Shown: piece by piece, positions 5,096 through 57,284 of the stretch | Position numbering within the stretch: position 1 is the stretch's first letter | How the letters are laid out: each line of letters begins with the position of its first letter | Assembly (NCBI RefSeq): GCF_034424215.1 | Contig: NZ_CP139960.1 | Location: forward strand, 4,774,001 to 4,838,000 | Direction: 5' to 3' | DNA length: 64,000 nucleotides | From: Niabella yanshanensis | GTDB lineage: Bacteria > Bacteroidota > Bacteroidia > Chitinophagales > Chitinophagaceae | Made by a program: the position numbers and the translations under genes | Notes under the pieces: model-generated | What the model saw: only the letters and a program-made list of their open reading frames with translations | Told to the model about the DNA's origin: nothing | Database searches by the model: none

Positions 5096-5137
5096 CATCC
5101 GGCATCCAGTATCTAGTATCCAGCATCTAATATCTAA
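5096..5137. repeat. Heptanucleotide-phased array, six YATCYRR words
   Basis: Six consecutive 7-bp words all fit YATCYRR (first catccgg, last tatctaa), directly between aroK and the DUF423 gene and ending 5 bp before its ATG. The same word recurs at 26073-26107 and twice at 4510-4523. The words vary between copies but keep exact phase, so this is not a simple recent microsatellite. See findings. Confidence 0.85.
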
Positions 5138-5142
5138 TTACC

Positions 5143-5526
5143 ATGCATAAATTGTACCTCACCCTAGGTAGCGTAATAGCCGGCCTTGGTGTTATTTTAG
5201 GAGCATTTGGAGCTCATAAATTAAAAGAAATAGCTCCAGACTCGGTTCCAACCTTTCAAACCGGCGTTCAATACCAGATGTATCATGCGTTTGCGCTATT
5301 AATTGTGGGGATTCTTTTTGAGAAATTCCCTTTTAAAACTATGAATTGGGCGGGACTTTGCTTTCTGATTGGTATTCTTTTGTTTTCCGGTTCCCTGTAT
5401 GCGCTGTCTCTTCTAAAGGCAACCGGTAAAGTTGGCCTGGGCGGAATCGGTATCGTTACACCAATTGGAGGGCTCTTCTTTATAACAGGCTGGATTTGCT
5501 TTGTTGTGGCGTTACTGAAAAAGTAG
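5143..5526 (+). CDS. DUF423 family small membrane protein
   Basis: 127 residues, almost all in four hydrophobic segments (about residues 5-25, 44-60, 68-90 and 98-125). The diagnostic DUF423/YgdD motif GAFGAHKLK is at residues 21-29, and VQYQMYHAFALL follows. These proteins sit in the inner membrane; a biochemical role is not established. It lies between aroK and ftsK, 68 bp after aroK across the heptad array. Confidence 0.88.
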   Translation: MHKLYLTLGSVIAGLGVILGAFGAHKLKEIAPDSVPTFQTGVQYQMYHAFALLIVGILFEKFPFKTMNWAGLCFLIGILLFSGSLYALSLLKATGKVGLGGIGIVTPIGGLFFITGWICFVVALLKK

Positions 5527-5662
5527 CATGCAGTTGAAATTTTTTAGAACTTAAGGTCCTTAGATCCTGGCACTCAAGCTCTGGAGCCCGGGTTTTCATA
5601 TTTTCGTCGTAGGAGTAGATAAAGGAGTTGTTCGAACCTTCGGACAACTTTCCAACCTTCCT

Positions 5663-5670
5663 TATCTTTG
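5663..5670 (+). promoter_or_regulatory. -7 promoter box (TATCTTTG) abutting the ftsK start
   Basis: TATCTTTG matches TAnnTTTG and ends 5 bp before the ftsK ATG at 5676. With the usual spacing of about 6-7 bases from box to start site, the transcript would begin at or next to the A of ATG, so the mRNA could be leaderless. No TTTG was found at the usual -33 distance. Confidence 0.45.
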
Positions 5671-5675
5671 CTTTT

Positions 5676-13640: not shown

Positions 13641-13675
13641 GTTGTAGTTCGTTCATGGTTGATGGTTGATAGCCG
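13641..13675. repeat. Heptad-phased array upstream of kdsA
   Basis: Five 7-bp words in phase (gttgtag, ttcgttc, then atggttg twice, atagccg), 20 bp outside the kdsA start. Same layout as the ribosomal-operon spacers, different word. Confidence 0.55.
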
Positions 13676-13785
13676 ACAGTTTTTCAACCTATGCCCCATT
13701 CCCTTGACCCTGTATTGAATGTCCATAATCAATCCTCTGTGCGAAAACGTTTGCACAATGACGAGCAGCTAACCCATTATTTCAA

Positions 13786-16589: not shown

Positions 16590-17504
16590 TTACATATTAG
16601 GAGCAGTGCCGGCCTCTGTAATATCGCCACTGGCCATATCCAGCAGGTCCAGAATATTATCAGGAGATGACGCTGCATTGCTACTGGCCATTTCCTTTTG
16701 CCATTTGGAGATCTGGTCATCGCAGCTATGGTCTTCACCAGCGATACAATCAGCCATATTGCTTACCTTTTTCGACATCCTGACGATGTTACCATCCTGG
16801 GTCATTAAAATAATATAGCGGTTTTGCAGATCAGCATTTCTTTCGTTAGAAGCGCTGTAGGCATTGCCCAACTTAGTACGTATGCCAGCCAAAGCCTGTT
16901 GTTGACGGTTACCCCTGCCGGCCTGCTGGGCGCCGTTGGTTTGAATAGCATTTTGTACTTTCAGACTGCCATCGGGCTTTCCACCGGTACCCGCAGTATA
17001 GCCCTTATCGCTGTGCCCGTCTGATAGAATAAAGAAAGCGCTAATACTCACAATAACAATAAAGCAGGCTGCTGCTGCATACTTCAACCATCCATGGTTC
17101 ATCGGTACTACCAAGGCCGGTTCGCTCTTTTTGCCTTCCAGCTCTTTAATAATATGAACCCAGGCCGAATTAGGTGGATTTACCTGTATGTTGGAAAGTT
17201 TCTTCTCAATGATCTCCAGGGCTTTTTGATCGTCCAGTTCCCGGCTTATTGCATTCCAGGCCATTGGAGGTACCGGTGCTTCGGCATTATATAATTTTGT
17301 TGCCAGGTCTTCTTCCTGGCTGGTAATATCCAACTGGTCAGCTATTGCAGTCCAGGCCATGACTGGCGGACTTATTTCCAACCCTGTTAAACGTTCGGAT
17401 ATGTTTTGATGAGCTTCGAGGTTGTCTAATTCACGGGCAATATTATTCCATGCCCCAGCCGGTGGAGTTACTTCAATATCATATATTTTGTTATGGCTGT
17501 TCAT
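16590..17504 (-). CDS. Putative anti-sigma-like membrane protein with four 32-residue repeats
   Basis: 304 residues. The N-terminal 125 residues are four tandem repeats whose Trp residues fall at 19, 51, 83 and 115, exactly 32 apart. Each unit reads roughly PPxxAWxxIxxELD followed by a helix with a KL pair. One membrane segment spans about residues 139-160 (LKYAAAACFIVIVSISAFFIL). The C-terminal part is Gln/Asn/Ser-rich and presumably periplasmic. The gene starts 6 bp downstream of the ECF sigma factor gene and shares its transcript, so an anti-sigma or sigma-linked sensor role is inferred. No standard zinc anti-sigma motif was seen. Confidence 0.6.
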   Translation of the reverse strand: MNSHNKIYDIEVTPPAGAWNNIARELDNLEAHQNISERLTGLEISPPVMAWTAIADQLDITSQEEDLATKLYNAEAPVPPMAWNAISRELDDQKALEIIEKKLSNIQVNPPNSAWVHIIKELEGKKSEPALVVPMNHGWLKYAAAACFIVIVSISAFFILSDGHSDKGYTAGTGGKPDGSLKVQNAIQTNGAQQAGRGNRQQQALAGIRTKLGNAYSASNERNADLQNRYIILMTQDGNIVRMSKKVSNMADCIAGEDHSCDDQISKWQKEMASSNAASSPDNILDLLDMASGDITEAGTAPNM

Positions 17505-18102: not shown

Positions 18103-18110
18103 CAAATATA
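18103..18110 (-). promoter_or_regulatory. -7 promoter box (TATATTTG) of the ECF sigma operon
   Basis: Exact TAnnTTTG on the minus strand, 29 bases upstream of the sigma ATG. A heptad array begins 3 bp further upstream and would cover the -33 region. Confidence 0.5.
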
Positions 18111-18112
18111 GG

Positions 18113-18163
18113 GAATAGTCAATAGTGTGAATAGTCAATAGTGAATTGCCAATGGTCAATAGC
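18113..18163. repeat. Heptad-phased array between rdgB and the ECF sigma gene
   Basis: Seven words close to SAATRGT (gaatagt, caatagt, caatggt and variants), in 7-bp phase except for one 2-base insertion. It fills the gap between the 3' end of rdgB and the sigma-factor promoter. Confidence 0.8.
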
Positions 18164-18170
18164 CCATCAG

Positions 18171-26062: not shown

Positions 26063-26072
26063 ATCTTTTGGG

Positions 26073-26107
26073 TATCCAGTATCCAATATCTGGCATCCAG
26101 CATCTTA
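26073..26107. repeat. Heptanucleotide-phased array, five words of YATCYRR type
   Basis: Four words fit YATCYRR and a fifth nearly does (catctta, which overlaps the phosphatase stop codon). Same word class as the array at 5096-5137, 21 kb away. It lies 10 bp from the terminator hairpin. Confidence 0.85.
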
Positions 26108-27733
26108 TTGAGTTACCTCGGTAATCGGCTTGCCAATGGCTCCATTAGGCATTTGAATGCGTAATAAGGCCGCAACAGTAGGTGCTATATCGGTCATATA
26201 CACTTCACGGTTACTTTTTCCGGGCTTAATGCCCCAGCCCATCCAAACTAATGGAATATGGGTGTCGTGCGGGTTCCAGGTACCATGTGTAGTTCCTGTT
26301 CCACCATATCCGCCTTCAAACCAGGCGGGGTAGGGTATCAACTGTATGGTGCCCGAGCGTTTGTTATTATAGCCATTAATGGTCATTTGTTTCACTACTT
26401 CAGGAACCGGCTCAGCACCTATATTTTCTACATCAATGACAAATTGCAGTTCAGGTACATCCTTTAAAAACTTCAAAGAGGCTTTTTTAATCGCGTCATA
26501 ATCTAGTTTCTGTTCCTTAATTACTTTTTTATTAAAATTGATCTGGTAATTAGTGTTAGACAGCACTATTTTCTCTGCGCCAAACTGAGCTTTTAAAGCA
26601 TCGTTAAGGCTGGTGGTGATCTTTTTTAACTCAAGGAATTCTGCAGGCATCTTATACTCTTTCATGAAGTTGATGGCATGCGCAGCTCCATGATCTGCCG
26701 TAAGAAATACCAGGTAGTTCCCTTTACCTAATTTCTGATCCAGATATTTGTAAAATGCACCCAGCTCTCTGTCTAAACGCAAATACACGTCTTCAATCTC
26801 GATAGAATTGGGACCATATTTATGGCCCACATAGTCGGTAGAAGCACAGTTAATGGTCAGAAAGTCCGTAGCAGTGCCACCGCCAAGGTTATTGCCCTCA
26901 ATAGCAGCTTTGGCAAAATCCAATGTAAGGGTATTGCCATAAGGAGAGCTGCGGATCACATCTTTATCAGTTTTGTACACGTCTTTCAGGTGATGAGGAA
27001 ATGCAGTAGTGGTTTCACCTTTGAATTTCCCTTCCCACTTCACATCGTCTGCAGTACTTTGTTTATAAGTATTGATGGGATAAAGTGTGGTCCATGGAGT
27101 AGCAGTTAGTCTGCCCGGCTCGTCTTTGGCGTTAAAATCTTTCACCCATTTAGGCAGCTCGTTCATGTACCAGGTGCTGGTAATAAAATCACCATTAACA
27201 TCATCAAACCAGAAAGCTCCCGTGGGATTATGGCCGGCAGGTAAAATTGATGCCCTGTCTTTAAGGGATACGCCAATTACTTTGGATTGAAAATTGGTAG
27301 CTAAACGGAGTTCATCCGTTATCGTTGTTGCGAGCAGGTTTCTTGGCGACATTTTGCCGGCGCTTGAGTTGCTGCCTACACCCTGAACCGTTGAGTCATC
27401 GGTGCAATACACATTTTTCCCTGAGGCCTGGTCGATCCAGTTATTACCTGCGATTCCGTGTAAAGCAGGTACTGAACCGGTGAATACGGTAGTATGACCA
27501 ATTGCGGTATAGGAGGGAATGTAATTGATAAAAGTATTCTCGCAGCTAAAGCCTTCGTTCAACATACGTTTAAAACCGCCGGTAGCTTCATAACGGTCGT
27601 AATACCGGTACAGGTAATCCCAGCGCATCTGGTCAATTACCAGGCCAACTACCAATTTAGGGCGTTTAACGGGTTGTGCGAAAGCAGCAAAGGCGATGAT
27701 TAAAAATAAAATAGAGAGTAATGATCGTTTCAT
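26105..27733 (-). CDS. PafA-like alkaline phosphatase (phosphodiesterase/nucleotide pyrophosphatase superfamily)
   Basis: 542 residues with a signal peptide ending AAFAQ. It is a periplasmic or surface phosphomonoesterase of the PafA type. Metal and nucleophile signatures: LVIDQMRWDYL (first Asp), NYIPSYTAIGHTTVFTGS (the Thr nucleophile region), NCASTDYVGHKYGP (Asp/His ligands), LTADHGAAH (Asp-His), and THGTWNPHDTHIPLVWMGWG near the end (last His). All ligand motifs are present. A minus-strand -7 box TATTTTTG lies at 27751-27758. It probably serves phosphate scavenging; no Pho-type operator was recognised. Confidence 0.88.
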   Translation of the reverse strand: MKRSLLSILFLIIAFAAFAQPVKRPKLVVGLVIDQMRWDYLYRYYDRYEATGGFKRMLNEGFSCENTFINYIPSYTAIGHTTVFTGSVPALHGIAGNNWIDQASGKNVYCTDDSTVQGVGSNSSAGKMSPRNLLATTITDELRLATNFQSKVIGVSLKDRASILPAGHNPTGAFWFDDVNGDFITSTWYMNELPKWVKDFNAKDEPGRLTATPWTTLYPINTYKQSTADDVKWEGKFKGETTTAFPHHLKDVYKTDKDVIRSSPYGNTLTLDFAKAAIEGNNLGGGTATDFLTINCASTDYVGHKYGPNSIEIEDVYLRLDRELGAFYKYLDQKLGKGNYLVFLTADHGAAHAINFMKEYKMPAEFLELKKITTSLNDALKAQFGAEKIVLSNTNYQINFNKKVIKEQKLDYDAIKKASLKFLKDVPELQFVIDVENIGAEPVPEVVKQMTINGYNNKRSGTIQLIPYPAWFEGGYGGTGTTHGTWNPHDTHIPLVWMGWGIKPGKSNREVYMTDIAPTVAALLRIQMPNGAIGKPITEVTQ

Positions 27734-29903: not shown

Positions 29904-29938
29904 TATAACCCAAACCTTAACATATAAATTAAAGTAAG

Positions 29939-30912: not shown

Positions 30913-30968
30913 ATAGTTCATAGTTGATCGTTCATAGTAATGAACCATTAACAATGATCCATTAACTA
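30913..30968. repeat. Heptad-phased hairpin spacer, rplW-rplB
   Basis: Eight consecutive 7-bp words. The first four are atagttc-like; the last four (tgaacca, ttaacaa, tgatcca, ttaacta) resemble their reverse complement. The spacer can fold into one long imperfect hairpin starting at the rplW stop codon. This is the clearest two-arm example. Confidence 0.85.
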
Positions 30969-32207: not shown

Positions 32208-32256
32208 GACTTCAAAACTTTAAACTTTAAACCTGTCTGCCGGCAGGCAGGCTTCA
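32208..32256. repeat. Heptad array enclosing a GC palindrome, rpsS-rplV
   Basis: Words gacttca, aaacttt, aaacttt, aaacctg lead in exact 7-bp phase into the palindrome CCTGTCTGCCGGCAGGCAGG (32232-32251) and out to ggcttca. The palindrome thus keeps the heptad phase. Confidence 0.8.
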
Positions 32257-32266
32257 AATTTATAAA

Positions 32267-32692: not shown

Positions 32693-32701
32693 CCAATAAA
32701 C

Positions 32702-33460: not shown

Positions 33461-33474
33461 GTTTTAATATGACC

Positions 33475-33526
33475 ATTTGAAGATTTGAGAATTTGATTAT
33501 CTCAAATCTCGAATCTCAAATCATAA
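33475..33526. repeat. Heptad-phased hairpin spacer, rpsC-rplP
   Basis: The left arm reads atttgaa, gatttga and a gaatttga octamer; the right arm has atctcaa, atctcga, atctcaa, atcataa (33499-33526) in exact phase. The arms are complementary in the ATTTGAGA/TCTCAAAT core. Confidence 0.8.
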
Positions 33527-33536
33527 ATAAATAGCA

Positions 33537-33959: not shown

Positions 33960-33983
33960 TTCGCCATTCTCAAAAATAAAGTC

Positions 33984-34199: not shown

Positions 34200-34231
34200 A
34201 AGTCAATACGTCAAACGACAAATTATTTAAA

Positions 34232-34489: not shown

Positions 34490-34490
34490 T

Positions 34491-34525
34491 TAGAATTTAG
34501 TATTGAGATATTAGTATTGACACTT
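34491..34525. repeat. Heptad-phased array after rpsQ
   Basis: Five words in phase: tagaatt, tagtatt, gagatat, tagtatt, gacactt. It starts 1 bp after the rpsQ stop. The words differ from those at the other end of the same spacer (34594-34628). Confidence 0.65.
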
Positions 34526-34593
34526 TTATCGTGAAATACACTACTAAACTTTAGTAATATATTGTAAAGGAGATGATTTTGGATAAAGTGCTT

Positions 34594-34628
34594 CATCTAA
34601 CATCTAAAATCTAACATCTAAAATCTAA
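34594..34628. repeat. Heptad-phased array before rplN, five (C/A)ATCTAA words
   Basis: Five consecutive 7-bp words, catctaa or aatctaa, ending 3 bp before the rplN ATG. It is related to the YATCYRR arrays at 5096 and 26073. Confidence 0.85.
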
Positions 34629-34631
34629 AAA

Positions 34632-35000
34632 ATGATACAGCAAGAAAGCAGGTTAAATGTAGCGGATAACAGCGGCGCGAAGGAAGTACTTTGTATTCGT
34701 GTATTGGGCAACAGCGGCCAGCGTTATGCAAGAATTGGCGATAAAATAGTAGTTACCGTTAAGGACGCAATGCCTGCAGCCGGTATTAAAAAAGGTACAG
34801 TTGCGAAAGCGGTTATTGTACGTACTACTAACAAATTACGCCGTAAAGATGGTTCTTACATCCGTTTTGATGACAATGCAGTAGTGATATTGAATGCGGC
34901 AGATGAACCAAGAGGTACACGTATTTTTGGCCCGGTAGCCAGGGAATTACGTGATAAAGGATACATGAAGATTGTATCATTGGCACCAGAGGTATTATAA
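34632..35000 (+). CDS. rplN: 50S ribosomal protein L14
   Basis: 122 residues. It binds 23S rRNA and forms an intersubunit bridge. Start [29 protein letters not shown] and end [23 protein letters not shown] are typical. Confidence 0.98.
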
Positions 35001-35006
35001 ATAAAT

Positions 35007-35107
35007 AGCTAATTAGCCGGTGAGCTAATGTGCTAATGAAAGTTCGAATAAATTTTATGTGTATAATTGGCTAATCGGCTCATTATCACATTAGCAAATT
35101 AATTTAA
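35007..35107. repeat. Heptad-phased two-arm spacer, rplN-rplX
   Basis: The left arm, from agctaat at 35007 to atgtgct at 35034, and the right arm, from attggct at 35066 to gcaaatt at 35100, each read as four to five 7-bp words. The arms are partly complementary (GCTAAT/ATTAGC and TGAGC/GCTCA), giving an imperfect hairpin that fills the gap. Confidence 0.65.
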
Positions 35108-35108
35108 A

Positions 35109-35444
35109 ATGAGCAACAGATTTAAACCCAAGTACAACATTAAAAAAGGCGACCAGGTGGTTGTGATTACTGGTGCGGATAAAGATAGAACCAAACCACG
35201 CCTAGTAAAAGAAGTATTGGTAGACGAAGGTAAAGTATTGGTAGAAGGTGTTAATATCAAAACACGTCATACCAAACCTTCTGCGCAAAATACTAAAGGT
35301 GGTATCGTTAAAAGCGAAGCTCCTATTAATATCAGCAACGTTATGTTATGGGATGCTAAAGCAAAAGCGCCGTCTAAAGTAAGACGTGAGCGCGAAAACG
35401 GTAAAACTGCCCGCGTATTTAAAAAATCGGGTGAAAAAATTTAA
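35109..35444 (+). CDS. rplX: 50S ribosomal protein L24
   Basis: 111 residues. It is an assembly initiator of the 50S. The KOW motif lies in NIKKGDQVVVITGADKDRTKPRLV, followed by VNIKTRHTKPSAQNTKGGIV. Confidence 0.97.
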   Translation: MSNRFKPKYNIKKGDQVVVITGADKDRTKPRLVKEVLVDEGKVLVEGVNIKTRHTKPSAQNTKGGIVKSEAPINISNVMLWDAKAKAPSKVRRERENGKTARVFKKSGEKI

Positions 35445-35470
35445 TCCCAGTCTGCCGCCAGGCAGGATTA
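35444..35470. repeat. GC palindrome, rplX-rplE
   Basis: TCTGCC-GCCA-GGCAGG with outer AATCC/GGATT pairs, immediately after the rplX stop. Same palindrome family as 32232, 36433 and 38628. Confidence 0.7.
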
Positions 35471-35495
35471 TATCGATTAAAACAACAAAAAGATC

Positions 35496-36071
35496 ATGAG
35501 CACAAATACATATACTCCAAGGTTGGCAACAAAATATAAAAGCGAAGTAGCGCCTGCTTTGGTTAAAAAGTTTGCTTACAAAAGTGTAATGCAGGCTCCC
35601 AAGCTTGAAAAAATTTGCGTAAACCGCGGTGTAAACGGTGCTGTTACCGATAAAAAGCTGGTTGATGTTGCAGTAGAAGAGCTGACAACCATCACTGGTC
35701 AGAAAGCGGTAATCACACAGTCCAAAAAAGACATCTCTAACTTTAAACTTCGTAAGGCTATGCCAATCGGTGCAAGGGTGACTTTGCGCGGAGAAAAAAT
35801 GTACGAGTTTTTGGATAGGCTGATTTCTGTGGCGCTGCCTCGTGTACGTGATTTTAAAGGTATCAACGAAAAATCTTTCGACGGTCGTGGTAACTATACA
35901 ATGGGTGTTACTGAACAAATCATTTTCCCTGAAATTGATATTGACAAAGTAAACAAGATCACTGGTATGGATATTACTTTCGTAACTACAGCTCAAACTG
36001 ATGAAGAAGCTTACGAACTGTTGAAAGAATTAGGCATGCCTTTCAAAAATATTAAAAGAAACGCTGAGTAA
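35496..36071 (+). CDS. rplE: 50S ribosomal protein L5
   Basis: 191 residues. It binds 5S rRNA. Marks: [49 protein letters not shown] and [18 protein letters not shown]. rpsN follows after 23 bp. Confidence 0.98.
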
Positions 36072-36094
36072 TTAATAAAACTGAATAATATAAA

Positions 36095-36364
36095 ATGGCA
36101 AAAACTTCAATAAAAGCCCGTCAGCTAAAAAGAGAAAAATTAGTTGAGCAGTATGCGGCTAAAAGAGAAGAGTTGAAACAAGCCGGTGATTATGCCGCTT
36201 TAGATAAGCTTCCCAAGAACTCATCTAAAGTACGTCTTAAAAACCGTTGCCAGCTTACTGGTCGTCCTAAAGGTTATGTTCGCTACTTTGGCATCTCCAG
36301 GGTTGCTTTGAGAGACATGGCTTTGAACGGGAAAATTCCAGGACTTAAAAAAGCCAGCTGGTAA
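36095..36364 (+). CDS. rpsN: 30S ribosomal protein S14 (zinc-free type)
   Basis: 89 residues. The C-terminal [27 protein letters not shown] is the S14 core. Only one Cys is present, so this is the C-minus form that does not bind zinc. Start [18 protein letters not shown]. Confidence 0.97.
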
Positions 36365-36453
36365 TTGATTTCGAATATTGAATATTGATTATTTAATATT
36401 TACCGACCAACAAATAAATATTAAATCTACAACCTGCCTGTCGGCAGACAGGT
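36364..36453. repeat. Heptad array plus GC palindrome, rpsN-rpsH
   Basis: From the rpsN stop codon, 7-bp words such as tcgaata, ttgaata, ttgatta, tttaata run in phase to about 36398. Then comes the palindrome CCTGCCTGTCGGCAGACAGG (36433-36452), flanked by ttaaatct and cttaaata. Confidence 0.75.
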
Positions 36454-36467
36454 CTTAAATATAGATT

Positions 36468-36866
36468 ATGGTAACAGATCCAATAGCAGATTTCTTAACA
36501 AGAATACGTAACGCGCAAATGGCGGGTCACCGTGTGGTTGATATTCCTGCATCTAACCTGAAAAAACGCATGACTGAGATCTTGTACAGACAAGGTTACA
36601 TCCTGAAGTATAAATTTGAGGATGACAGCAAACAAGGCGTTATTAAAATTGCGTTGAAATACGATGCAGATACCAAACAGCCTGCTATCCAGAGCCTGGA
36701 AAGAGTAAGCCGTCCGGGTTTGCGTCAGTACGCAAAACCTGCGGAGATCCGCAGAGTAAAAAACGGTTTGGGTGTAGCTATCCTGTCTACTTCTAAAGGA
36801 GTAATGACTGATAAGGAAGCGAAAGCTCAAAACGTAGGCGGAGAAGTTCTTTGCTACATTTACTAA
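36468..36866 (+). CDS. rpsH: 30S ribosomal protein S8
   Basis: 132 residues. It organises the 16S central domain; E. coli S8 also represses the spc operon. Start VTDPIADFLTRIRNAQMAGH and end STSKGVMTDKEAKAQNVGGEVLCYIY are canonical. A 151-bp gap without a recognisable gene separates it from rplF. Confidence 0.98.
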   Translation: MVTDPIADFLTRIRNAQMAGHRVVDIPASNLKKRMTEILYRQGYILKYKFEDDSKQGVIKIALKYDADTKQPAIQSLERVSRPGLRQYAKPAEIRRVKNGLGVAILSTSKGVMTDKEAKAQNVGGEVLCYIY

Positions 36867-37017
36867 TCGTAAATATAAGATGACCTGGAATGAAGAAAAT
36901 GGTTTCAGGTTATCTCTAAAAATAAAATTGAGTGACAATCTAAGTTCTCTATACGGAAACTGAACACGGTCAATCTACATTTTCAAACTATTAAATAATA
37001 ATTTTCAAAAAGAAATT

Positions 37018-37572
37018 ATGTCACGTATAGGAAAAAAAATCATCACTGTTCCGGATGGAGTAACAGTGCAAGTGAGTAGCGATAACGTAGTTACTGTAAA
37101 AGGAAAAAAAGGTGAGCTGAAGCAAGCTATTAATCCGGATATTAAAGTAGAGGTAAAAGATGGTCAGCTTACTGTAAGCCGTCCTTCTGACCAGATCCAG
37201 CATCGTGCCCAGCATGGTTTATACCGCGCTTTATTGGCTAACCTGGTTCAGGGTGTAACTGAAGGTTTCGAAAAGAAACTGGAATTAGTGGGTGTGGGTT
37301 ATAAAGCTACGAACCAGGGAAATTTGTTAGATCTTTCTTTAGGTTACTCTCACAATATCCTGGTAGAAGTTCCAAGCGAGCTGACACTAGCTACAGAGCA
37401 ACTGAAAGGGCAGAACCCGATTATTACTATTTCTGGCAGCGATAAGCAATTGGTAGGTGCGGTATGTGCAAAAATCCGCAGCCTGCGCAAGCCAGAGCCT
37501 TACAAAGGAAAAGGTGTTCGCTTTGTTGGTGAGATTGTAAGGAAAAAAGCTGGTAAATCGGCTGGTAAATAA
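37018..37572 (+). CDS. rplF: 50S ribosomal protein L6
   Basis: 184 residues. It sits by the sarcin-ricin loop. Marks: MSRIGKKIITVPDGVTV, LELVGVGYKA and the C-terminal RKPEPYKGKGVRFVGEIVRKKAGK. Confidence 0.98.
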   Translation: MSRIGKKIITVPDGVTVQVSSDNVVTVKGKKGELKQAINPDIKVEVKDGQLTVSRPSDQIQHRAQHGLYRALLANLVQGVTEGFEKKLELVGVGYKATNQGNLLDLSLGYSHNILVEVPSELTLATEQLKGQNPIITISGSDKQLVGAVCAKIRSLRKPEPYKGKGVRFVGEIVRKKAGKSAGK

Positions 37573-37579
37573 ATCATTT

Positions 37580-37621
37580 AATGTTTAAAGTTCAATGTTG
37601 AATGTTGAACTTTAAACTCCA
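37580..37621. repeat. Heptad-phased palindromic array, rplF-rplR
   Basis: Six words in exact phase: aatgttt, aaagttc, aatgttg, aatgttg, aacttta, aactcca. The outer words are mutually complementary (GTTTAAAGTTCA against TGAACTTTAAAC), so the array forms a hairpin. Confidence 0.85.
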
Positions 37622-37659
37622 AAATATTCCTGGCAGCATCAGGACAAAAATATAAAAAG

Positions 37660-38016
37660 ATGTCAAACGTAAAATCATTAAGAAGACTTAAGATTCGCCA
37701 CACTATCCGTAGAAAAATCAGTGGTACTGCGCAGAAGCCGAGATTAGCTATATTTCGCAGCAATACTGATATCTATGCTCAGTTGATTGATGACAGCAAA
37801 GGTGTTACCATTGCTGCAGCTTCTTCAAAAGATAAAGATATCAAAGCTCAAAGCGGTACTAAAAGCGAAAAAAGCAAATTAGTAGGTGCAGCGCTTGCAC
37901 GCAAAGCCGGCGAGCTGAATGTAAAAGATGTGGTTTTTGATCGTGGCGGATATTTGTACCATGGCCGTGTGAAAGCGGTAGCTGAAGGTGCAAGAGAAGG
38001 TGGTCTTCAATTTTAA
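37660..38016 (+). CDS. rplR: 50S ribosomal protein L18
   Basis: 118 residues. It binds 5S rRNA. Marks: [29 protein letters not shown] and [27 protein letters not shown]. Confidence 0.98.
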
Positions 38017-38043
38017 TAAATACTATAATTCTAAATAGATATA

Positions 38044-38562
38044 ATGTCAACAGTTACGTACAACAAAGTAAAAGCAAACGATCTTGAGTTAAAAGACAAG
38101 GTGGTCGCTATTAACCGTGTGGTAAAAACTACAAAAGGTGGCCGTGCTTTTAGTTTTTCAGCTTTAGTAGTAGTAGGCGATGGTAATGGTGTTGTAGGCC
38201 ATGGTTTGGGTAAAGCTAAAGAGGTTCAGGAAGCTATTACAAAAGGTATTGAAGATGCCAAAAAAAACCTGATCAAAGTTCCTATTTTGAAAGGTACTAT
38301 TCCTCACGACCAATGGTGCAAAGATGGTGCAGCTAAAGTAATGATTTTACCAGCTACACCGGGTACCGGAGTAATCGCAGGAGGTTCTATGCGTGCTGTT
38401 TTGGAAGCTGCCGGTGTACATGATGTATTAGCAAAGTCTTTGGGTTCTGCTAACCCTCATAACGTGGTAAAAGCTACATTCAAAGCTTTAGCTATGTTAC
38501 GTGAGCCGGTAACTATCGCAAAAACCCGCAACTTAGGTTTAAAGAAAGTATTTCAAGGTTAA
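38044..38562 (+). CDS. rpsE: 30S ribosomal protein S5
   Basis: 172 residues. It helps decoding fidelity. Marks: [38 protein letters not shown] and [17 protein letters not shown]. Confidence 0.98.
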
Positions 38563-38570
38563 TATTGTTT

Positions 38571-38647
38571 GAAGTTAGATGTTTAAAGTTCAATGTTTTG
38601 TAACGACTTTAAGCTTTCAACTTTGAATCTGTCTGCCGACAGGCAGG
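38571..38647. repeat. Heptad array plus GC palindrome, rpsE-rpmD
   Basis: Eight words in phase from gaagtta at 38571 to actttga at 38126+500 (38120-38126 of the last word lies at 38620-38626). The left four and right three words are complementary (TTAAAGT/ACTTTAA). The palindrome TCTGTCTGCCGACAGGCAGG follows at 38628-38647, and ttaaacat after it can pair back to ATGTTTAA at 38579. Confidence 0.8.
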
Positions 38648-38664
38648 CCTTAAACATATTCGAA

Positions 38665-38844
38665 ATGAAAAAAGTAAAAATAACATTAGTAAAAAGCCCT
38701 ATCGATCGCCCGGAAAGACAAAAGCTTACTTTGCAGGCTTTGGGCTTAAACAAAACTAACAGCAGTAAGGAAGTTGAAGCTACTCCACAGGTGCTTGGTA
38801 TGATCCGCAAGGTGGAGCACATGCTGAAAGTAGAAGAAATCTAA
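38665..38844 (+). CDS. rpmD: 50S ribosomal protein L30
   Basis: 59 residues from ATG 38665, the family length. KKVKITLVKSPIDRPERQKLTLQALGL and the HML end are typical. Upstream in-frame codons run through the palindrome repeat and were excluded. Confidence 0.96.
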   Translation: MKKVKITLVKSPIDRPERQKLTLQALGLNKTNSSKEVEATPQVLGMIRKVEHMLKVEEI

Positions 38845-38885
38845 TATTTTCCATAGTAAATGTAGAATTTGAAGTGTAAGTGTTA

Positions 38886-38893
38886 TACATTTG
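38886..38893 (+). promoter_or_regulatory. Possible internal -7 box (TACATTTG) before rplO
   Basis: Exact TAnnTTTG in the rpmD-rplO gap. TTTG at 38868-38871 is only 14 bp upstream of it rather than 19, so an internal promoter is uncertain. Confidence 0.35.
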
Positions 38894-38969
38894 CATCCTT
38901 AAAATTCTACATTTATCATTTTAAGAAGCGAGCCTCGGCTTTGGGGCGTAAGTTTTAAAAAAGCAAATA

Positions 38970-39419
38970 ATGAAATTACATGAATTAAGACCTGCAAAAG
39001 GTTCTACTCACAAGGAAAAAAGAATTGGTCGTGGTGAAGGTAGCGGCTACGGTGGTACCTCAACAAAAGGTAACAAAGGTGGTCAAAGCCGTGCCGGTTA
39101 CAAAAGCAAAATGGCGCATGAAGGCGGTCAGATGCCTATCCAACGTCGTGTGCCTAAAAGAGGGTTCAAAAATCCTAATAAGATCACTTATAAAGTATTC
39201 AACGTAGGTCAGTTTGATCACTATGCTGAGGTTTACGGTTTAACTGATTTTACTTTTGACAGTCTTTATCAAATTGGTGCTGTAGCTAAAACTGATAAAG
39301 TTAAAGTTTTGGGTACAGGGGAATTGAAAGGTAAGTTCAGCTTTAAAGTGCACGCAATAAGCGAAAAAGCTAAGTCGATTATTGAGGCAGCCGGCGGAAC
39401 AATAGAGATTTTAAATTAA
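38970..39419 (+). CDS. rplO: 50S ribosomal protein L15
   Basis: 149 residues. Late 50S assembly protein. Marks: MKLHELRPAKGSTHKEKRIGRGEGSGYGGTSTKGNKGGQSRAG and GGQMPIQRRVPKRGFKN-type segments. Confidence 0.98.
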   Translation: MKLHELRPAKGSTHKEKRIGRGEGSGYGGTSTKGNKGGQSRAGYKSKMAHEGGQMPIQRRVPKRGFKNPNKITYKVFNVGQFDHYAEVYGLTDFTFDSLYQIGAVAKTDKVKVLGTGELKGKFSFKVHAISEKAKSIIEAAGGTIEILN

Positions 39420-39435
39420 TTCTGATAAATATATT

Positions 39436-39540
39436 TGACGCACCAGTCGGGTGCGTCATTTGATTTTGACGGTTGTTTAAGTAAGATGAAACTTCTTCGA
39501 AGTTTCTCTTGTCCGCAGGACTCTTCCGGAGACCGGGTAT
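39436..39540 (+). promoter_or_regulatory. Hairpin-rich leader upstream of secY
   Basis: TGACGCACC pairs with GGTGCGTCA (39436-39458) and is followed by a weak T-rich stretch; then GAAACTTC-TTC-GAAGTTTC (39488-39506) and GTCC-GCA-GGAC. The first hairpin could be a partial terminator between rplO and secY; the others are of unknown role. Confidence 0.45.
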
Positions 39541-39567
39541 CAATAAAAATTATTCAAGAGAAATCAG

Positions 39568-40908
39568 GTGAAAAAATTTATACAAACATTAAAGAATATC
39601 TGGAGCATTGAAGAGTTAAGGAGTAAGATTCTTTTCACTTTATTGCTTGTAGCTGTTTACAGGTTGGGTGCACATATCACCTTGCCTGGAATCAATCCAA
39701 TTGCTTTAGAACAACTGAGTAAATCTCAGTCTCAGAACGGGATCCTCGATCTGATCAATACTTTTGCCGGTGGTGCTTTTAATATGGCATCTATTTTTGC
39801 GTTAGGTATTATGCCTTACATTACTGCCTCTATTTTCGTGCAGTTGATGACCGTGCTGGTACCCACTTTCCAGAAAATGCAGAAAGAAGGAGAAAGTGGT
39901 CGTAAAAAGATCAACCAACTAACGCGTTATATCACTGTATTAGTTACTGTCGTACAGGCTTTCGCTTATGTAGCTTATTTGCGTCAAACCTCAGGACCTG
40001 CTATTGTTCCGGGTTTTGGCGCAGCTTACTTTACACTGACAACGGTTGTGGTTTTAACCGCAGGTACTTTGTTCGTGATGTGGTTGGGTGAAAAAATAAC
40101 TGATAAGGGTTTGGGTAACGGTACCTCCCTTATTATTATGATGGGTATCCTTGCGCGCTTGCCACAGGCCTTTGCACAAGAACTATCTTTCCGTTCAGAG
40201 CGTACTGGTGATATCCTTATTTTTATTATAGAGATCGCAGTATACATCGCTATTAACATGGGTTGTATTTTATTGATCCAGGCAGTAAGGAAGGTACCGG
40301 TTAACTATGCTAAACAAATTGTCGGTAACAGGCAGTTTGGTGGTGCGCGTCAGTTCTTACCTCTAAAGGTGAACAGCGCGGGTGTAATGCCAATTATCTT
40401 CGCTCAGGCTATTTTATTTATCCCTACATTATTTACTTTAGGTAAAAATGGCGGCGATCTGGGACGTATGTTTACAGATCACACGAGTGGCTGGTATATG
40501 TTGATTTACTCCGTAGTGGTAATCGGCTTTACTTTCCTTTACACAGCGTTGATCTTTAATCCTAAACAGATATCTGACAATCTAAAGCAGAATAATGGGT
40601 TTATCCCGGGTGTAAAACCTGGTCAACCTACTACAGATTACATTGGTAGCATCATGGATAGAATCACCTTCCCGGGAGCAGTAATGCTGGCCTTTATCGG
40701 TATTCTTCCCGGTTTGATCCAGTTATTATTTGGTATGACCCAGGCTTTCTCTATGTTCTTTGGTGGTACATCATTGTTGATCATGGTGGGTGTGGTTTTA
40801 GATACACTTCAGCAAATCGAAACGCAGTTGATGATGCGCCAGTACGATGGGTTAATGAAAGGTGGTCGTATCCAGGGCAGACAAACCAGCTCTGCTGTAC
40901 AGATTTAA
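39568..40908 (+). CDS. secY: Protein translocase subunit SecY
   Basis: 446 residues from GTG 39568 (no ATG gives the family N-terminus KKFIQTLKNIWSIEELRSKILFTL). It is the ten-helix core channel of Sec export. Plug region LNTFAGGAFNMASIFALGIMPYI and the cytoplasmic loop FNPKQISDNLKQNNGFIPGVKPG that contacts SecA/ribosome are intact. It ends at a terminator. Confidence 0.97.
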   Translation: MKKFIQTLKNIWSIEELRSKILFTLLLVAVYRLGAHITLPGINPIALEQLSKSQSQNGILDLINTFAGGAFNMASIFALGIMPYITASIFVQLMTVLVPTFQKMQKEGESGRKKINQLTRYITVLVTVVQAFAYVAYLRQTSGPAIVPGFGAAYFTLTTVVVLTAGTLFVMWLGEKITDKGLGNGTSLIIMMGILARLPQAFAQELSFRSERTGDILIFIIEIAVYIAINMGCILLIQAVRKVPVNYAKQIVGNRQFGGARQFLPLKVNSAGVMPIIFAQAILFIPTLFTLGKNGGDLGRMFTDHTSGWYMLIYSVVVIGFTFLYTALIFNPKQISDNLKQNNGFIPGVKPGQPTTDYIGSIMDRITFPGAVMLAFIGILPGLIQLLFGMTQAFSMFFGGTSLLIMVGVVLDTLQQIETQLMMRQYDGLMKGGRIQGRQTSSAVQI

Positions 40909-40934
40909 CCAGCACATCCAATTTATTAAAATAC

Positions 40935-40960
40935 AAACCCGGTTTTACCGGGTTTTTTTA
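40935..40960 (+). terminator. Rho-independent terminator between secY and map
   Basis: AACCCGG pairs with CCGGGTT around TTTTA, followed by seven T. It ends 15 bp before the map ATG, so map may depend on readthrough or a promoter inside the hairpin. Confidence 0.85.
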
Positions 40961-40975
40961 TGAACTTTGCAGGCT

Positions 40976-41776
40976 ATGATTATTATCAAAACAGATGAAC
41001 AGGTAGAGCTGATGCGAAAAAGCGCATTAATGGTAAGCCAGACTTTAACTGAAGTGGCAAAAATGCTGAAACCTGGTATCACTACTTTGTCTTTAGATGA
41101 GTTTATAGGAGATTACATTAAAGATCATAATGGTGTCCCTTCTTTTTTAAACTATCACGGATATCCCTTCAATTCCTGCATTTCGGTTAACGATGTGGTA
41201 GTACATGGATTTCCTAATAAGAATGAATTAAAGGATGGGGATGTGGTTTCTATAGATGTAGGTATCATTCTCAATAAATGGCATGGTGATCATGCCTATA
41301 CTTTTGTAATAGGCGAAGTAGCTGAAGATATACAACAATTAGTTAGGGTAACCAAGGAATCGCTTTATAAGGGTATTGAAAAAGCGGTTAGCGGTAATTT
41401 TATCGGAGACCTGGCTTTTGCCATCCAGGAGCATACGGAGAAAAAACATGGTTATGGCGTAGTAAGGGAATTAGTGGGGCATGGACTTGGACAAAGTATG
41501 CATGAAGATCCGCAGGTGCCTAACTACGGCAAGCGGGGTAGCGGTAAGAAGCTAAAGTCCGGAATGGTATTGGCTATTGAGCCGATGATCAATATGGGGA
41601 AAAAAGATGTGTTTACTGAATCCGATGGATGGACCATCCGTACAAAAGATGGCAAGCCATCTGTGCATTTTGAACACGACGTATGTGTGAGAAAAGATAA
41701 GGCAGATATACTTTCCAATTATGCGCCTATTGAAGAGGCGGAAAGGAATAATCCTAACTTGTTTGTGTGTGGATAA
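40976..41776 (+). CDS. map: Methionine aminopeptidase, type I
   Basis: 266 residues from ATG 40976. It removes N-terminal Met from nascent proteins. Dimetal ligands are Asp94, Asp105, His169, Glu202 and Glu233 (SIDVG, GDHAYTF, VGHGLGQSMHEDP, AIEPM, HFEHD), with His77 in the substrate pocket. In most relatives infA, rpmJ, rpsM, rpsK, rpsD, rpoA and rplQ follow; none are present here. Confidence 0.97.
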   Translation: MIIIKTDEQVELMRKSALMVSQTLTEVAKMLKPGITTLSLDEFIGDYIKDHNGVPSFLNYHGYPFNSCISVNDVVVHGFPNKNELKDGDVVSIDVGIILNKWHGDHAYTFVIGEVAEDIQQLVRVTKESLYKGIEKAVSGNFIGDLAFAIQEHTEKKHGYGVVRELVGHGLGQSMHEDPQVPNYGKRGSGKKLKSGMVLAIEPMINMGKKDVFTESDGWTIRTKDGKPSVHFEHDVCVRKDKADILSNYAPIEEAERNNPNLFVCG

Positions 41777-41778
41777 TG

Positions 41779-41873
41779 TAAGGTCTATGGTCTGTAGACA
41801 ATGGACGAAGGTCGGAGGGCCGTGCCAGGTCAATAGCGAACTTTAAATCTCAAATTATAAATCAGCAATCCTT
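41779..41873. repeat. Two heptad-phased blocks between map and the flavoprotein gene
   Basis: The first block (41779-41820) has six words such as taaggtc, tatggtc, aatggac, gaaggtc. The second (41839-41873) has aacttta, aatctca, aattata, aatcagc, aatcctt and runs across the place where the flavoprotein must start. Confidence 0.7.
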
Positions 41874-43083
41874 AATTGTAATTGGTGGCGGGGCCGCAGG
41901 TTTTTTCTGCGCTGTTAATGCAGCGAGAATGAATCCGGCCTTAAAAGTTACTATAGTAGAACGTTCTAATAAATTACTATCAAAAGTTAAGGTGAGCGGA
42001 GGGGGGCGCTGTAATGTAACCCATGCCTGTTTTGATAAGGTAGAGATGTCAAAACGGTACCCGAGAGGAGGCAATTTTGTAAAGAAATTATTTCACCGTT
42101 TTTTTACTCATGATACAATAAATTGGTTTAAAGAACGCGGCGTCGAGTTAAAAGCTGAAGCGGATGGCCGTATGTTTCCTGTTACGGATTCTTCTCAAAC
42201 AATTATCGACTGCCTGTTAAGAGAAGCGGATCAATACAACGTGCAGATCAGAATGCATTGCGATATCAAAAGTATAAAGAGCGCTGACAGCGGTTTCCAA
42301 CTCTCAACAGCGAATGATGAAGAACTGACCGCTTCTTATGTATGTGTTGCTACAGGGGGCTTTCCCAAAGCTTCGATGTTTGACTGGTTAACACGAACCG
42401 GGCACAGTTTCTCAGCGCCTGTACCTTCTTTATTTACGTTTAACCTGCCTAAACATCCGGTTACTCAACTGATGGGCGTAAGCGTTCCTGATGCTTTAGT
42501 AAAGATAACAGGTACTAAGCTGCAACAACAGGGGCCGGTGTTGATTACCCATTGGGGACTGAGCGGGCCGGTCGTATTGAAGCTAAGCGCTTATGCAGCC
42601 AGGGACTTGGCCGAAAGAAACTGGGAATTTGACACTATTATTAACTGGGTGCCAAAGTATAATGAGCAGACTTTAAAGGAACATTTTCTGCAATTGCGCA
42701 ATGATAACGGCTCATCGCTTTTGTATCATAAAAACCCTTTTGGATTACCACAACGCCTTTGGGAGTTTTTCTTAAAAGAGTGTAAGATCCCCGAAAGCTG
42801 TCGTCGTGCCGACTTACAGGCCAAACCTCAGAACGAGCTGGTAAAAAAGTTAACCAATTATCTTTTTTCCGTAAAAGGTAAAACGACCTTTAAAGAAGAG
42901 TTTGTTACAGCTGGTGGTATCACATTAAGTGAAATCGATTCCAATACCATGATGAGCAAAAAACGGCCTAATTTATTTTTTGCGGGAGAGGTTATTGATG
43001 TAGATGGCATCACCGGAGGCTATAATTTTCAAAATGCGTGGAGCACAGGGTGGGTAGCGGCACATACAATCGCTGCTATGTAA
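41857..43083 (+). CDS. HI0933-like FAD-dependent oxidoreductase with non-standard start
   Basis: About 408 residues. The Rossmann FAD motif VIGGGAAGFFCAVNAARM is encoded before the first ATG (41929), so the protein must start upstream. Between the in-frame stop at 41779 and 41929 there is no ATG, GTG or TTG; ATA 41857 or ATT 41854 gives the family-length N-terminus. Other marks: SGGGRCNVTHACFD, PLGRMFPVT-type ADGRMFPVTDSSQ, TGGFPKASMF, HWGLSGPVVLKLSA, TAGGITLSEID and FAGEVIDVDGITGGYNFQNAWSTGWVAA. Function in this family is poorly defined. It may be translated weakly or be starting to decay. Confidence 0.8.
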   Translation: MNQQSLIVIGGGAAGFFCAVNAARMNPALKVTIVERSNKLLSKVKVSGGGRCNVTHACFDKVEMSKRYPRGGNFVKKLFHRFFTHDTINWFKERGVELKAEADGRMFPVTDSSQTIIDCLLREADQYNVQIRMHCDIKSIKSADSGFQLSTANDEELTASYVCVATGGFPKASMFDWLTRTGHSFSAPVPSLFTFNLPKHPVTQLMGVSVPDALVKITGTKLQQQGPVLITHWGLSGPVVLKLSAYAARDLAERNWEFDTIINWVPKYNEQTLKEHFLQLRNDNGSSLLYHKNPFGLPQRLWEFFLKECKIPESCRRADLQAKPQNELVKKLTNYLFSVKGKTTFKEEFVTAGGITLSEIDSNTMMSKKRPNLFFAGEVIDVDGITGGYNFQNAWSTGWVAAHTIAAM

Positions 43084-55372: not shown

Positions 55373-55790
55373 TTATTCTACTCTTTCCCAAACTTCGCTA
55401 AGGTCTAGATTGCCATTGGCAATTTTGCCGGTGATATACATTTTATTTTTCTCCAGCTTGATAGAAAAAACAGATTGCGTATTTTGAAGATTGTTTTTTT
55501 CATCGGCGTAAACTATATCTTCTGTATACTGATCTTTTTTGAGCTGGTAAGTGCCGCCGATCGTTCTAACGACATTGCCATTATTGAGATAGGTAACTGC
55601 CACAAAATGTTTAGGACCGAAAATTTTGATGTAATTGACCTGCGGCGTTACTTCTGCAACGTTAGCTGTTGGCAGTGAGCCATTCTTGGCGGAAACCAGC
55701 TTCCAGGTTCCGTTAATCGATTTGTTTTTTTTGTGAGTAACTAAAAAGGCTAAGCATCAGCAGCATCGGCAAAATAAACAGAGATTTCAT
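55373..55790 (-). pseudogene. Secreted DUF4488/lipocalin-like protein with poly-A frameshift
   Basis: ATG 55790 opens a normal signal peptide (MKSLFILPML…FSYSQ). A run of eight A (plus strand T at 55725-55732) then shifts the frame into a stop. In the next frame the protein continues as SINGTWKLVSAKNGS, AVTYLNNGNVVRTIGGTYQLKKDQY and up to LSEVWERVE at 55373. One A fewer would restore a 138-residue protein. The GTWKL…W pattern suggests a small beta-barrel. It could be phase-variable, a fresh pseudogene or a sequencing error. Confidence 0.65.
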
Positions 55791-55848
55791 GGTTATTATA
55801 TTTTATTATTAAATATACAATACAAATACTGTAATTCATTAAAATGGT

Positions 55849-55856
55849 TATCTTTG
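55849..55856 (+). promoter_or_regulatory. -7 promoter box (TATCTTTG), probable for hppD
   Basis: Exact TAnnTTTG, 164 bp before the hppD ATG, so a leader of about 155 bases would result. A near-match lies directly before the ATG (about 56010). Which one is used cannot be told. Confidence 0.35.
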
Positions 55857-56020
55857 TATTACCGATGAGGCCGGATTATCCATATAAAATATTTACTGAC
55901 AAGCGCGTAAACTACGTATTGCTTGTTGAGGCCCTTGCTACAGATCACCGTATCTAATCTATTCCCGTTTTTTCCTGTAAAGGAATTTCCCTTTTCTTTT
56001 TAACGATTAAAATCTTTGTT

Positions 56021-57151
56021 ATGTCTAATGCATTACTGTCAGCGCCAGCTGTAGCTGATGTTGTTGATTTTTTACCGCTTGAGGGCACCGATTATATAGA
56101 GTTTTATGTAGGCAATGCCAAGCAGGCGGCTCATTTTTATAAAACCGCATTCGGGTTTCAATCGCTTGCCTACGCTGGCCCTGAAACAGGCGTAAAGGAC
56201 CGCGCCAGCTATGCGGTTCGTCAAAATAAACTTACGCTTGTTTTTACTACATCGCTTAAAGGAAATAATGAAATAAGCGAACATGTGGCACGCCATGGAG
56301 ATGGTGTAAAGATGCTGGCCCTGCGTGTGCAGGATGCTACAGATGCATGGAGACAAACTACACAAAGAGGAGGTAAGAGCTTTATGAAGCCTGTGCGCCT
56401 GACAGATGCCGATGGTGAGATAGTGATGAGCGGCATACATACGTACGGCGATACGGTGCATCTTTTTATTGAACGGAAGAATTACCAGGGCGCTTTTTTG
56501 CCTGGCTATAGAAAATGGGAATCGTCCTATAATCCGTCCGAAACGGGTTTATTATATGTCGATCATTGCGTAGGTAATGTGGGTTGGAATAAAATGAATG
56601 AATGGGTAAGGTTTTACGAAGAGGTAATGGGTTTTCGGAACATCATTTCTTTTGATGATAACGATATCTCTACCGAATATTCTGCATTGATGAGTAAGGT
56701 GATGAGTAGTGGTAATGGTTTTGTTAAATTTCCTATCAATGAACCTGCTGAAGGGAAAAAGAAATCCCAGATCGAAGAGTACCTTGATTTTTATAATGGC
56801 GAGGGAGTACAACATGCTGCCCTGGCTACCAACAACATTATTGAAACTGTTACGGAACTTCAGAAACGTGGAGTAGAATTTTTAAAAGTGCCGGCATCTT
56901 ATTATGATACGCTGCTGGACAGGGTAGGCGAAATAGACGAAGATCTTCTGCCTTTAAAAGAGTTGGGAATTTTAGTGGACAGGGATGACGAAGGTTACCT
57001 GTTACAGATCTTCACAAAACCTGTTGAAGACCGGCCTACTTTGTTTTTTGAAATCATACAGCGTAAGGGAGCAAAGAGCTTTGGTAAGGGGAACTTTAAA
57101 GCTTTGTTTGAAGCGATTGAACGGGAGCAGGAGGCGAGGGGCAATTTATAG
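56021..57151 (+). CDS. hppD: 4-hydroxyphenylpyruvate dioxygenase
   Basis: 376 residues. It converts 4-hydroxyphenylpyruvate to homogentisate. Two vicinal-oxygen-chelate halves are seen. Fe(II) ligands are His182 (LLYVDHCVGNV), His265 (GEGVQHAALAT) and Glu344 (LFFEIIQRKG), matching His161/His240/Glu322 of the Pseudomonas enzyme. It is the first gene of a run with the aminotransferase and FAH genes, separated from the former by a 134-bp heptad spacer. Confidence 0.95.
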   Translation: MSNALLSAPAVADVVDFLPLEGTDYIEFYVGNAKQAAHFYKTAFGFQSLAYAGPETGVKDRASYAVRQNKLTLVFTTSLKGNNEISEHVARHGDGVKMLALRVQDATDAWRQTTQRGGKSFMKPVRLTDADGEIVMSGIHTYGDTVHLFIERKNYQGAFLPGYRKWESSYNPSETGLLYVDHCVGNVGWNKMNEWVRFYEEVMGFRNIISFDDNDISTEYSALMSKVMSSGNGFVKFPINEPAEGKKKSQIEEYLDFYNGEGVQHAALATNNIIETVTELQKRGVEFLKVPASYYDTLLDRVGEIDEDLLPLKELGILVDRDDEGYLLQIFTKPVEDRPTLFFEIIQRKGAKSFGKGNFKALFEAIEREQEARGNL

Positions 57152-57284
57152 TTGATCAGTTGAAAAGTTTATAGGTTGATAGGGAAGTTCACCAAATGAT
57201 TAACAAGTCATTGAGTTTAGCAGATGAAGAAGGCTTGCGAAGTTCGCCCCCTATCAACTATGAACTATAAACATTTACATTTAA
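57148..57284. repeat. Heptad-type two-arm spacer, hppD-aminotransferase
   Basis: The left arm holds GTTTATAGGTTGATAGG (57167-57183). The right arm, 57250-57284, reads in 7-bp words cctatca, actatga, actataa, acattta, catttaa up to the next ATG. The arms pair over CCTATCAAC and CTATAAAC with a six-base bulge. Confidence 0.7.

Follow-up and report, generated by a model that had tools for sequence, protein, structure and literature searches.

The 64,000 nucleotides (nt) of Niabella yanshanensis analysed here (the window; NCBI RefSeq assembly GCF_034424215.1, contig NZ_CP139960.1, positions 4,774,001 to 4,838,000, or G000:C1:4774001-4838000 in our numbering, in which genome G000 is one contig of 5.54 Mb) are occupied in their middle by the S10-spc ribosomal operon, whose genes we have presumptively named from protein sequence and gene order. 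The RpsC protein encoded in the window shares 99% identity with its Niabella hibiscisoli counterpart. Many intergenic gaps of the Chitinophagaceae contain tandem arrays of degenerate 7- or 8-nt words, which are often laid out as the two arms of a hairpin, and these arrays are the subject of the present work. The original prediction, drawn from the window alone, had noted heptamer arrays in about 16 gaps; the observation is real yet incomplete, having missed the inverted arms, the octamers, the enrichment in the ribosomal operon and the turnover of whole blocks.

Autocorrelation, measured against dinucleotide shuffles of each gap, shows an excess at lags 7, 14 and 21 in the intergenic DNA of the window (z 5.7, 3.8 and 2.3), in 400 kb from the rest of G000 (2.8, 2.5 and 1.9) and in the genome G011 (6.4, 5.8 and 3.2). 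Intergenic DNA of G008 shows none (z -1.4, -1.3 and 0.9) and holds 1 period-7 array in 23.6 kb. Coding DNA carries the 3-nt comb only, with no excess at lag 7, and the comparison of intergenic with coding sequence that had been proposed as a check is thereby borne out. With arrays called at a fixed score threshold (cut of 12), 14 period-7 intergenic arrays are found in the window, compared with 0.8 in shuffled gaps. Sixteen gaps were also tested singly, 15 of them containing the 16 places first pointed out (34491 and 34594 lie in one gap, and the segment at 34491 taken alone scores 10.8, under the cut) and the last being the gap of 4510. Thirteen reach p<=0.005 at lag 7, namely those starting at 5075, 13620, 18075, 25955, 30913, 32163, 33461, 34490, 36365, 37573, 38563, 41777 and 57152. 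The gaps at 4468 (p=0.17) and 8250 (lag 7 p=0.89, lag 8 p=0.03) fail, and the one at 35001 is of period 8 (Table 1). The heptamers thus stand at most of the places named, while the strict phase of 7 ascribed to them was too strong a description, since 33461 and 57152 also carry both periods. The statement that none lies inside coding frames proves nearly right: over 864 kb of G000, lag-7 arrays number 28 per 790,854 bp of called coding sequence (0.035/kb) versus 25 per 70,335 bp of intergenic sequence (0.36/kb; shuffles 3.2). Only two such 'coding' arrays, at 13651 and 30904, are in the window, and the open reading frame (ORF) calls that cover them look over-long, the first because homology with the genome G012 ends at 13642 and resumes at 13741, and the second because the ORF across it runs on the strand opposite to the ribosomal operon.

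Period 7 is the commonest and period 8 the second. Pooled over G000, G007, G011 and G020, co-directional gaps hold 87 period-7 arrays in 107 kb (shuffles 4.8) and convergent gaps 18 in 28 kb (shuffles 0.8), and period-8 arrays number 32 in co-directional, 5 in convergent and 8 in divergent gaps (shuffles 3.6, 0.8 and 2.0, respectively). Periods 5, 6, 9, 10 and 11 give 4, 2, 10, 9 and 8 arrays in total, which is near the shuffle level of periods 7 and 8, the yardstick used here in place of shuffles of their own.

The arrays are concentrated in the ribosomal operon. Among gaps of 50-260 bp, arrays are more frequent in those of the ribosomal operon than in the remaining co-directional ones, and this holds for each of the 5 genomes tested (8/13 vs 17/174 in G000, 10/14 vs 17/84 in G007, 7/13 vs 4/55 in G011, 9/14 vs 13/92 in G020 and 4/12 vs 0/58 in G008; Fisher p 2.8e-5 to 5.4e-4). 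Array gaps account for 111 of 196 ribosomal-operon gaps over 15 Niabella genomes, and for 279 of 894 over the loci of other Chitinophagaceae, in which one genome, Parafilimonas terrae, is counted twice (L046, L129). The enrichment and array-position counts exclude G003, on account of frame errors, together with L032 (duplicate of G012) and L034 (duplicate of G010); in the G003 (L114) assembly the reading frames of the ribosomal operon are broken, and rpsC is split over two matches. Around rpsC, the excess at lags 7 and 8 is strong in Niabella (z 12.3 and 10.8, 57 gaps) and in other genera of the family (9.2 and 5.1, 46 gaps). In small samples, no lag-7 excess is seen in other families of the order (z -0.1 and 1.8, 30 gaps), in other orders (-0.2 and -1.4, 22 gaps) or in other classes (-1.5 and -1.2, 36 gaps). 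At the tsf and L7/L12 loci, arrays occur in 5/18 gaps of 50-260 bp, all five at rpsB>tsf, where 5/7 genomes have the same plan with other words; the L7/L12 gaps counted, which are few, have no array.

In ortholog gaps of 16 Niabella genomes, a frequent plan runs from the stop codon through G-words, a loop and reverse-complement words to a few bases and the start codon. Among the 111 Niabella array gaps of the ribosomal operon, arrays in the 5' half have more G than C in 55 cases, more C than G in 5 and equal numbers in 3, and those in the 3' half have more C in 76, more G in 14 and equal numbers in 2. The first array lies a median of 10 nt from the stop codon (<=8 nt in 53/111) and the last a median of 7 nt from the start (<=12 nt in 79/111), which upholds the remark that the arrays begin or end close to these codons. 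As had been suggested, the arrays may bear on ribosome access. Of 96 array gaps in four genomes, 41 contain an inverted partner of their best array at p<=0.05 and 26 do so at p<=0.01, about 5 and about 1 being expected, and a direct partner outside the array is found at these levels in 23 and 8; gaps longer than 450 bp, or with less than 25 bp beyond the array, were omitted. Therefore, hairpins are common, not universal. Seven of eight chosen window gaps fold with z -2.9 to -4.7, and the stretch 5075-5142 with z -0.4. No Rfam family matches within the window at gathering score.

The two arms change together at about half of the positions. The halves of a gap complement each other better when both come from one species than when they come from two, at p<=0.005 for 6/13 gap positions (rpsC>rplP, rplN>rplX, rpsH>rplF, rplF>rplR, rpsE>rpmD and rplO>secY) and at p 0.01-0.034 for 3 more, each position being represented by 6 to 16 species in a permutation that disregards kinship. 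Hence the hairpin outlives its own sequence.

Change between species is often blockwise. Between G004 and G009, whose coding identity is 96.5%, 10/13 gaps are >=80% identical, 1 is intermediate and 2, rplD>rplW and rpsC>rplP, are replaced, with a similarity no higher than that of unrelated sequence, while the flanks of both are 95-100% identical in all 60-bp bins. The block replaced at rplD includes the stop codon itself. Between G000 and G012 (93.0% coding identity), 9/12 gaps are conserved, 2 are intermediate and rpsC>rplP is replaced, two gaps being omitted because of a wrong start in G012; in seven further species pairs, 3 to 9 gaps are replaced in each. Replaced gaps are not always arrayed in both species, the rplD>rplW gap of G009 being 29 nt long without an array. 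No target-site duplication was seen by eye in the replaced gaps displayed. The rpsC>rplP gap of G004 groups with those of G010, G007 and G011 (over 124 bp of the G011 copy, G004 is 95% and G010 and G007 are 94% identical), yet over the 80 bp upstream of its rpsC stop, G004 does not differ from G009 and G005, the holders of the other gap type, and is 82-88% identical to G010. The first 40 bp to the right of the gap are the same in all three, and therefore this side is uninformative. Either G004 recovered the allele through exchange in a tract that barely exceeds the gap, or the spread of the other type took place several times.

Table 1. Word arrays and hairpin arms of the window, with positions counted from its first nucleotide.
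Feature	Position	Strand	Remark
Period-7 array, YATCYRR words, before start codon	5096..5138	+	No own hairpin; fold of 5075-5142 z -0.41
Period-7 array, divergent gap	13651..13679	-	Overlying ORF call probably too long
Period-7 array between two minus-strand genes	18108..18167	-	
Period-7 array directly 3' of stop of minus-strand gene 26105-27733	26072..26104	-	
rplW>rplB gap: heptamer array and reverse-complement array, hairpin	30913..30966	+	Fold z -2.86
rpsS>rplV gap: AAACTTT array, then GC palindrome missing in G012	32215..32232	+	
rpsC>rplP gap: 5' arm period 8, 3' arm period 7, hairpin; entire gap differs in G012	33475..33528	+	Fold z -4.73
rpsQ>rplN gap: (C/A)ATCTAA array ahead of start codon	34594..34630	+	
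rplN>rplX gap (35001): octamer hairpin arms, period 8 not 7	35007..35101	+	Lag 8 p=0.002, lag 7 p=0.89; fold z -4.00
rpsN>rpsH gap: self-folding GAATATT array	36368..36402	+	Fold z -3.84
rplF>rplR gap: both arms, perfect 16-bp stem	37577..37623	+	Fold z -4.15
rpsE>rpmD gap: both arms	38567..38627	+	Fold z -3.72
Period-7 array 3' of map stop	41779..41818	+	
5' arm, period 8	57150..57181	+	Fold of 57152-57285 z -3.06
3' arm, period 7, reverse complement of 57150-57181	57251..57272	+	

The origin and function of the arrays are inferred. The reading that we tentatively prefer, at slightly less than even odds, is that they are intercistronic hairpins whose structure is conserved while the sequence drifts, and which would be kept for a role in the mRNA and whose alleles would be exchanged by recombination. 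The words may be generated by short-period slippage, neighbouring units being the most alike, together with fold-back copying: a strand that has annealed to its inverse arm would be elongated with a shift of one word, and such a step would yield both the phase and the matching arms. Arrays would be retained where an intercistronic mRNA hairpin helps, be it as a spacer freeing the start, by separating cistrons or by steadying the mRNA. Short-tract recombination via the near-identical flanking genes would then swap alleles, and those with other words would be interchangeable because only foldability and length would matter. A bolder version, which we consider doubtful, is that the ribosomal-gap hairpins of the Chitinophagaceae inherit their architecture only, the interchangeable 7- or 8-nt words being rewritten or swapped between sister species as stop-to-start cassettes by dedicated or very precise copying. 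If the proposed view is true, evolution of intergenic DNA in a bacterial family proceeds by swapping entire structural blocks in which the letters are free, and therefore ordinary alignment would see no conservation where structure persists. The old question of why bacterial repeats favour a period of 7 nt could also be put to the test in sister species with near-identical flanks, and a role of intercistronic hairpins in ribosomal-protein operons would be indicated, in a phylum not known to rely much on Shine-Dalgarno initiation.

Several observations weigh against this interpretation. An inverted partner is absent at p<=0.05 in 55/96 array gaps, lone arms occur, certain ortholog gaps are entirely without an array, and arm co-change is not found at 4/13 gap positions (p>0.2). 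Whatever their array class, ribosomal gaps are more stably folded than their shuffles (median z -2.4 to -2.6), and array strength is therefore no predictor of stability. Sense RNA is stabler than antisense when all 209 gaps are taken (p=1e-4); in the 97 array-rich ones the difference is not clear (p=0.14), and strand asymmetry is therefore not used as support for selection at the RNA level. In the four pooled genomes, moreover, divergent gaps, where an intercistronic role is impossible, hold 14 period-7 arrays in 38 kb (shuffles 1.6), 9 of them in G007.

The chief rival, which we regard as a serious possibility, is that the arrays are a neutral mutational product without function: single strands exposed by transcription would form hairpins, and slippage or template switching would build 7-8-nt words in unconstrained DNA. 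The strong transcription of the ribosomal operon would then be expected to yield the enrichment. It accords with such an origin that arrays also lie in convergent and divergent gaps (for both kinds together at 50-260 bp, 3/98 in G000, 6/48 in G007, 1/22 in G011, 8/61 in G020 and 1/38 in G008), that their presence varies between near relatives, and that transitions make up a share of 0.49 of the differences between units, like the 0.53 of ortholog gaps. However, the co-change of the arms and the fixed position of arrays 4-12 nt ahead of starts speak against it, and the few gaps counted at the L7/L12 locus, which is presumably also highly transcribed, have no array.

It is improbable that the arrays belong to a dispersed mobile or copied element, that is, a family of hairpin repeats dispersed through a transposase or inter-locus conversion. 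Each genome does have its own vocabulary (array-to-array match rate within a genome 0.056 vs 0.022 with permuted labels, of which the maximum was 0.036; 105 arrays), and G011 has a second copy of its rpsC>rplP element in the neighbouring gap, 87% identical over 123 bp. Unit order, however, is hardly common to loci (3/106 matching pairs at p<=0.05; 70/106 above the permuted mean); words, not whole arrays, are common within a genome, and copying of whole arrays between loci finds little support in this permutation. Matches to Y1 transposases, which resemble those associated with repetitive extragenic palindromic (REP) sequences (REP-associated tyrosine transposases, RAYT), number 7 in G000, 10 in array-rich G007 and 0 in array-poor G008. 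They track the array load at these extremes only, as G011 and G020 are still array-rich although they have one and two matches, respectively, and an array lies within 250 bp at 4 of the 27 Y1 loci scored (of 30, 3 being without an ORF), several loci instead standing beside other GC-rich palindromes. We have thus set mobilisation by a RAYT aside, and the lack of visible target-site duplications in the replaced gaps displayed also runs counter to it.

Still less likely is an ordinary degenerate heptanucleotide satellite, born of replication slippage, in which the inverse arms are incidental. Identity between units does fall with distance (0.763 for neighbours, 0.71 at two units, 0.693 at three and 0.646 at four), and in many bacteria the most frequent long simple repeats are reported to be heptanucleotides (Mrazek 2007, as related in PMC4679880). 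Yet inverted partners are present, variation is clustered in some word columns (z 7.0 in 78 period-7 arrays, z 3.7 in 22 period-8 arrays), and the indel spectrum of alignable gaps at the species level (562 ortholog gap pairs) has no clear 7-nt peak, with 4/51 indels of this length at arrays vs 15/372 elsewhere. Growth by replication slippage, which had been suggested, is not supported as the main present process, and many gaps change blockwise. Intrinsic terminators are hardly credible, despite the position of the hairpins 3' of stop codons, as no plus-strand terminator-like site in 29900-42000, the region scanned, falls on any array and the arrays there are internal to the ribosomal operon; the suggested role in transcript ends is likewise not supported in that region.

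Repeats of comparable design are known elsewhere. The short tandemly repeated repetitive (STRR) sequences and long simple sequence repeats (LSSR) of cyanobacteria are intergenic and prefer a 7-nt unit; both traits are common to the Niabella arrays, while degenerate two-armed hairpins and block replacement are found on the Niabella side. REP palindromes, which go with RAYT transposases, are likewise intergenic and lineage-specific; unlike in that system, the Y1-transposase genes here adjoin short GC-rich palindromes and not word arrays. Closest are the published heptamers of Beggiatoaceae and Bacteroidetes, taken up below, and the P6b stem-loop of the Nostoc trnL(UAA) group I intron, for which the available part of the source describes 7-nt motifs of Class I (TDNGATT) and Class II (NNTGAGT), and replacement of the whole region between classes in scattered lineages (Kaasalainen 2015, PMC4476775). 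As far as that part goes, both systems have degenerate 7-nt repeats in the two stem arms (here in part of the gaps, and with 8-nt units too), both retain structure despite sequence differences, and in both whole regions are replaced. P6b, however, concerns one intron position and two word classes, whereas many gaps and many word families of 7 and 8 nt are involved here, between protein genes of another phylum and without an intron; nothing in the window reaches the gathering score of an Rfam family. The Niabella arrays work like P6b stems yet are no member of that group. The original prediction knew of no named counterpart in Bacteroidota, but heptamer repeats of five Bacteroidetes have been published: TAACTGA repeats lie near starts in Beggiatoaceae, cyanobacteria and these five, and other heptamers in gaps of Gramella, 'A.' (presumably Aequorivita) and Elizabethkingia (MacGregor 2015, PMC4679880, in the portion available). 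According to the same portion, nearly all are direct, with one indirect repeat among 170 sets, and related words are rare. Like the arrays of Niabella, they are intergenic heptamers, often just 5' of starts and with ribosomal genes among those downstream; theirs is one fixed word, whereas in Niabella the words vary by gap and species and the arms are inverse. In a literature consulted mostly without subscription papers, we found no published description of two-armed, word-switching hairpins in Bacteroidota operons.

Other elements share the gaps with the arrays. Palindromes of 20 bp, GC-rich and of the CTGCCTGCCGGCAGGCAG type, lie within array gaps at 32232-32251, 36433-36452 and 38628-38647; the first and third are absent from the G012 orthologs and the second from G008. 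A second type, CCCGATAGCTATCGGG, likewise varies between G004 and G005, G010 and G011, and G002 and G012, and both types have the appearance of small insertion-like elements. Among the Y1 loci, L282, L288, L294, L300 and L306 included, some adjoin palindromes resembling GTCCCGTAGGGAC. Terminator-like hairpins of nine GC-rich pairs followed by T runs are located at 39436-39458 (rplO>secY) and 40935-40955 (secY>map), in places without word arrays. The rplW>rplB gap contains GGCAATCAACCGCCGCGAAGTGTTG at 30976-31000, whose core CCGCCGCGAAGTGTTG is retained in 15/16 Niabella gaps while the remainder turns over, and which may possibly be a regulatory RNA site. A small hairpin, CCTGGCAGYATCAGG, stands at 37629-37643 before rplR and is found in 12/16 Niabella genomes, with similar ones in other genera. 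In the rpsN>rpsH gap (36365-36467), 9/16 Niabella genomes have the conserved element AAAGCCGTAAGACAGGGTATGGGCTT, whose place is taken by a word hairpin in the window, G012 and G008. Composite gaps, in which arrays surround a longer common repeat, CGTCATCCCGAYACCTGCG, with 71-86% mutual identity, occur in L227 (G007) at 2393, 5066 and 7699 and in L230 at 9548. Lastly, a stretch of 127 bp is 100% identical in two distant gaps of the window's genome (L140:19432-19558 and the L175 gap 17010-17182), in each of which it adjoins a word array.

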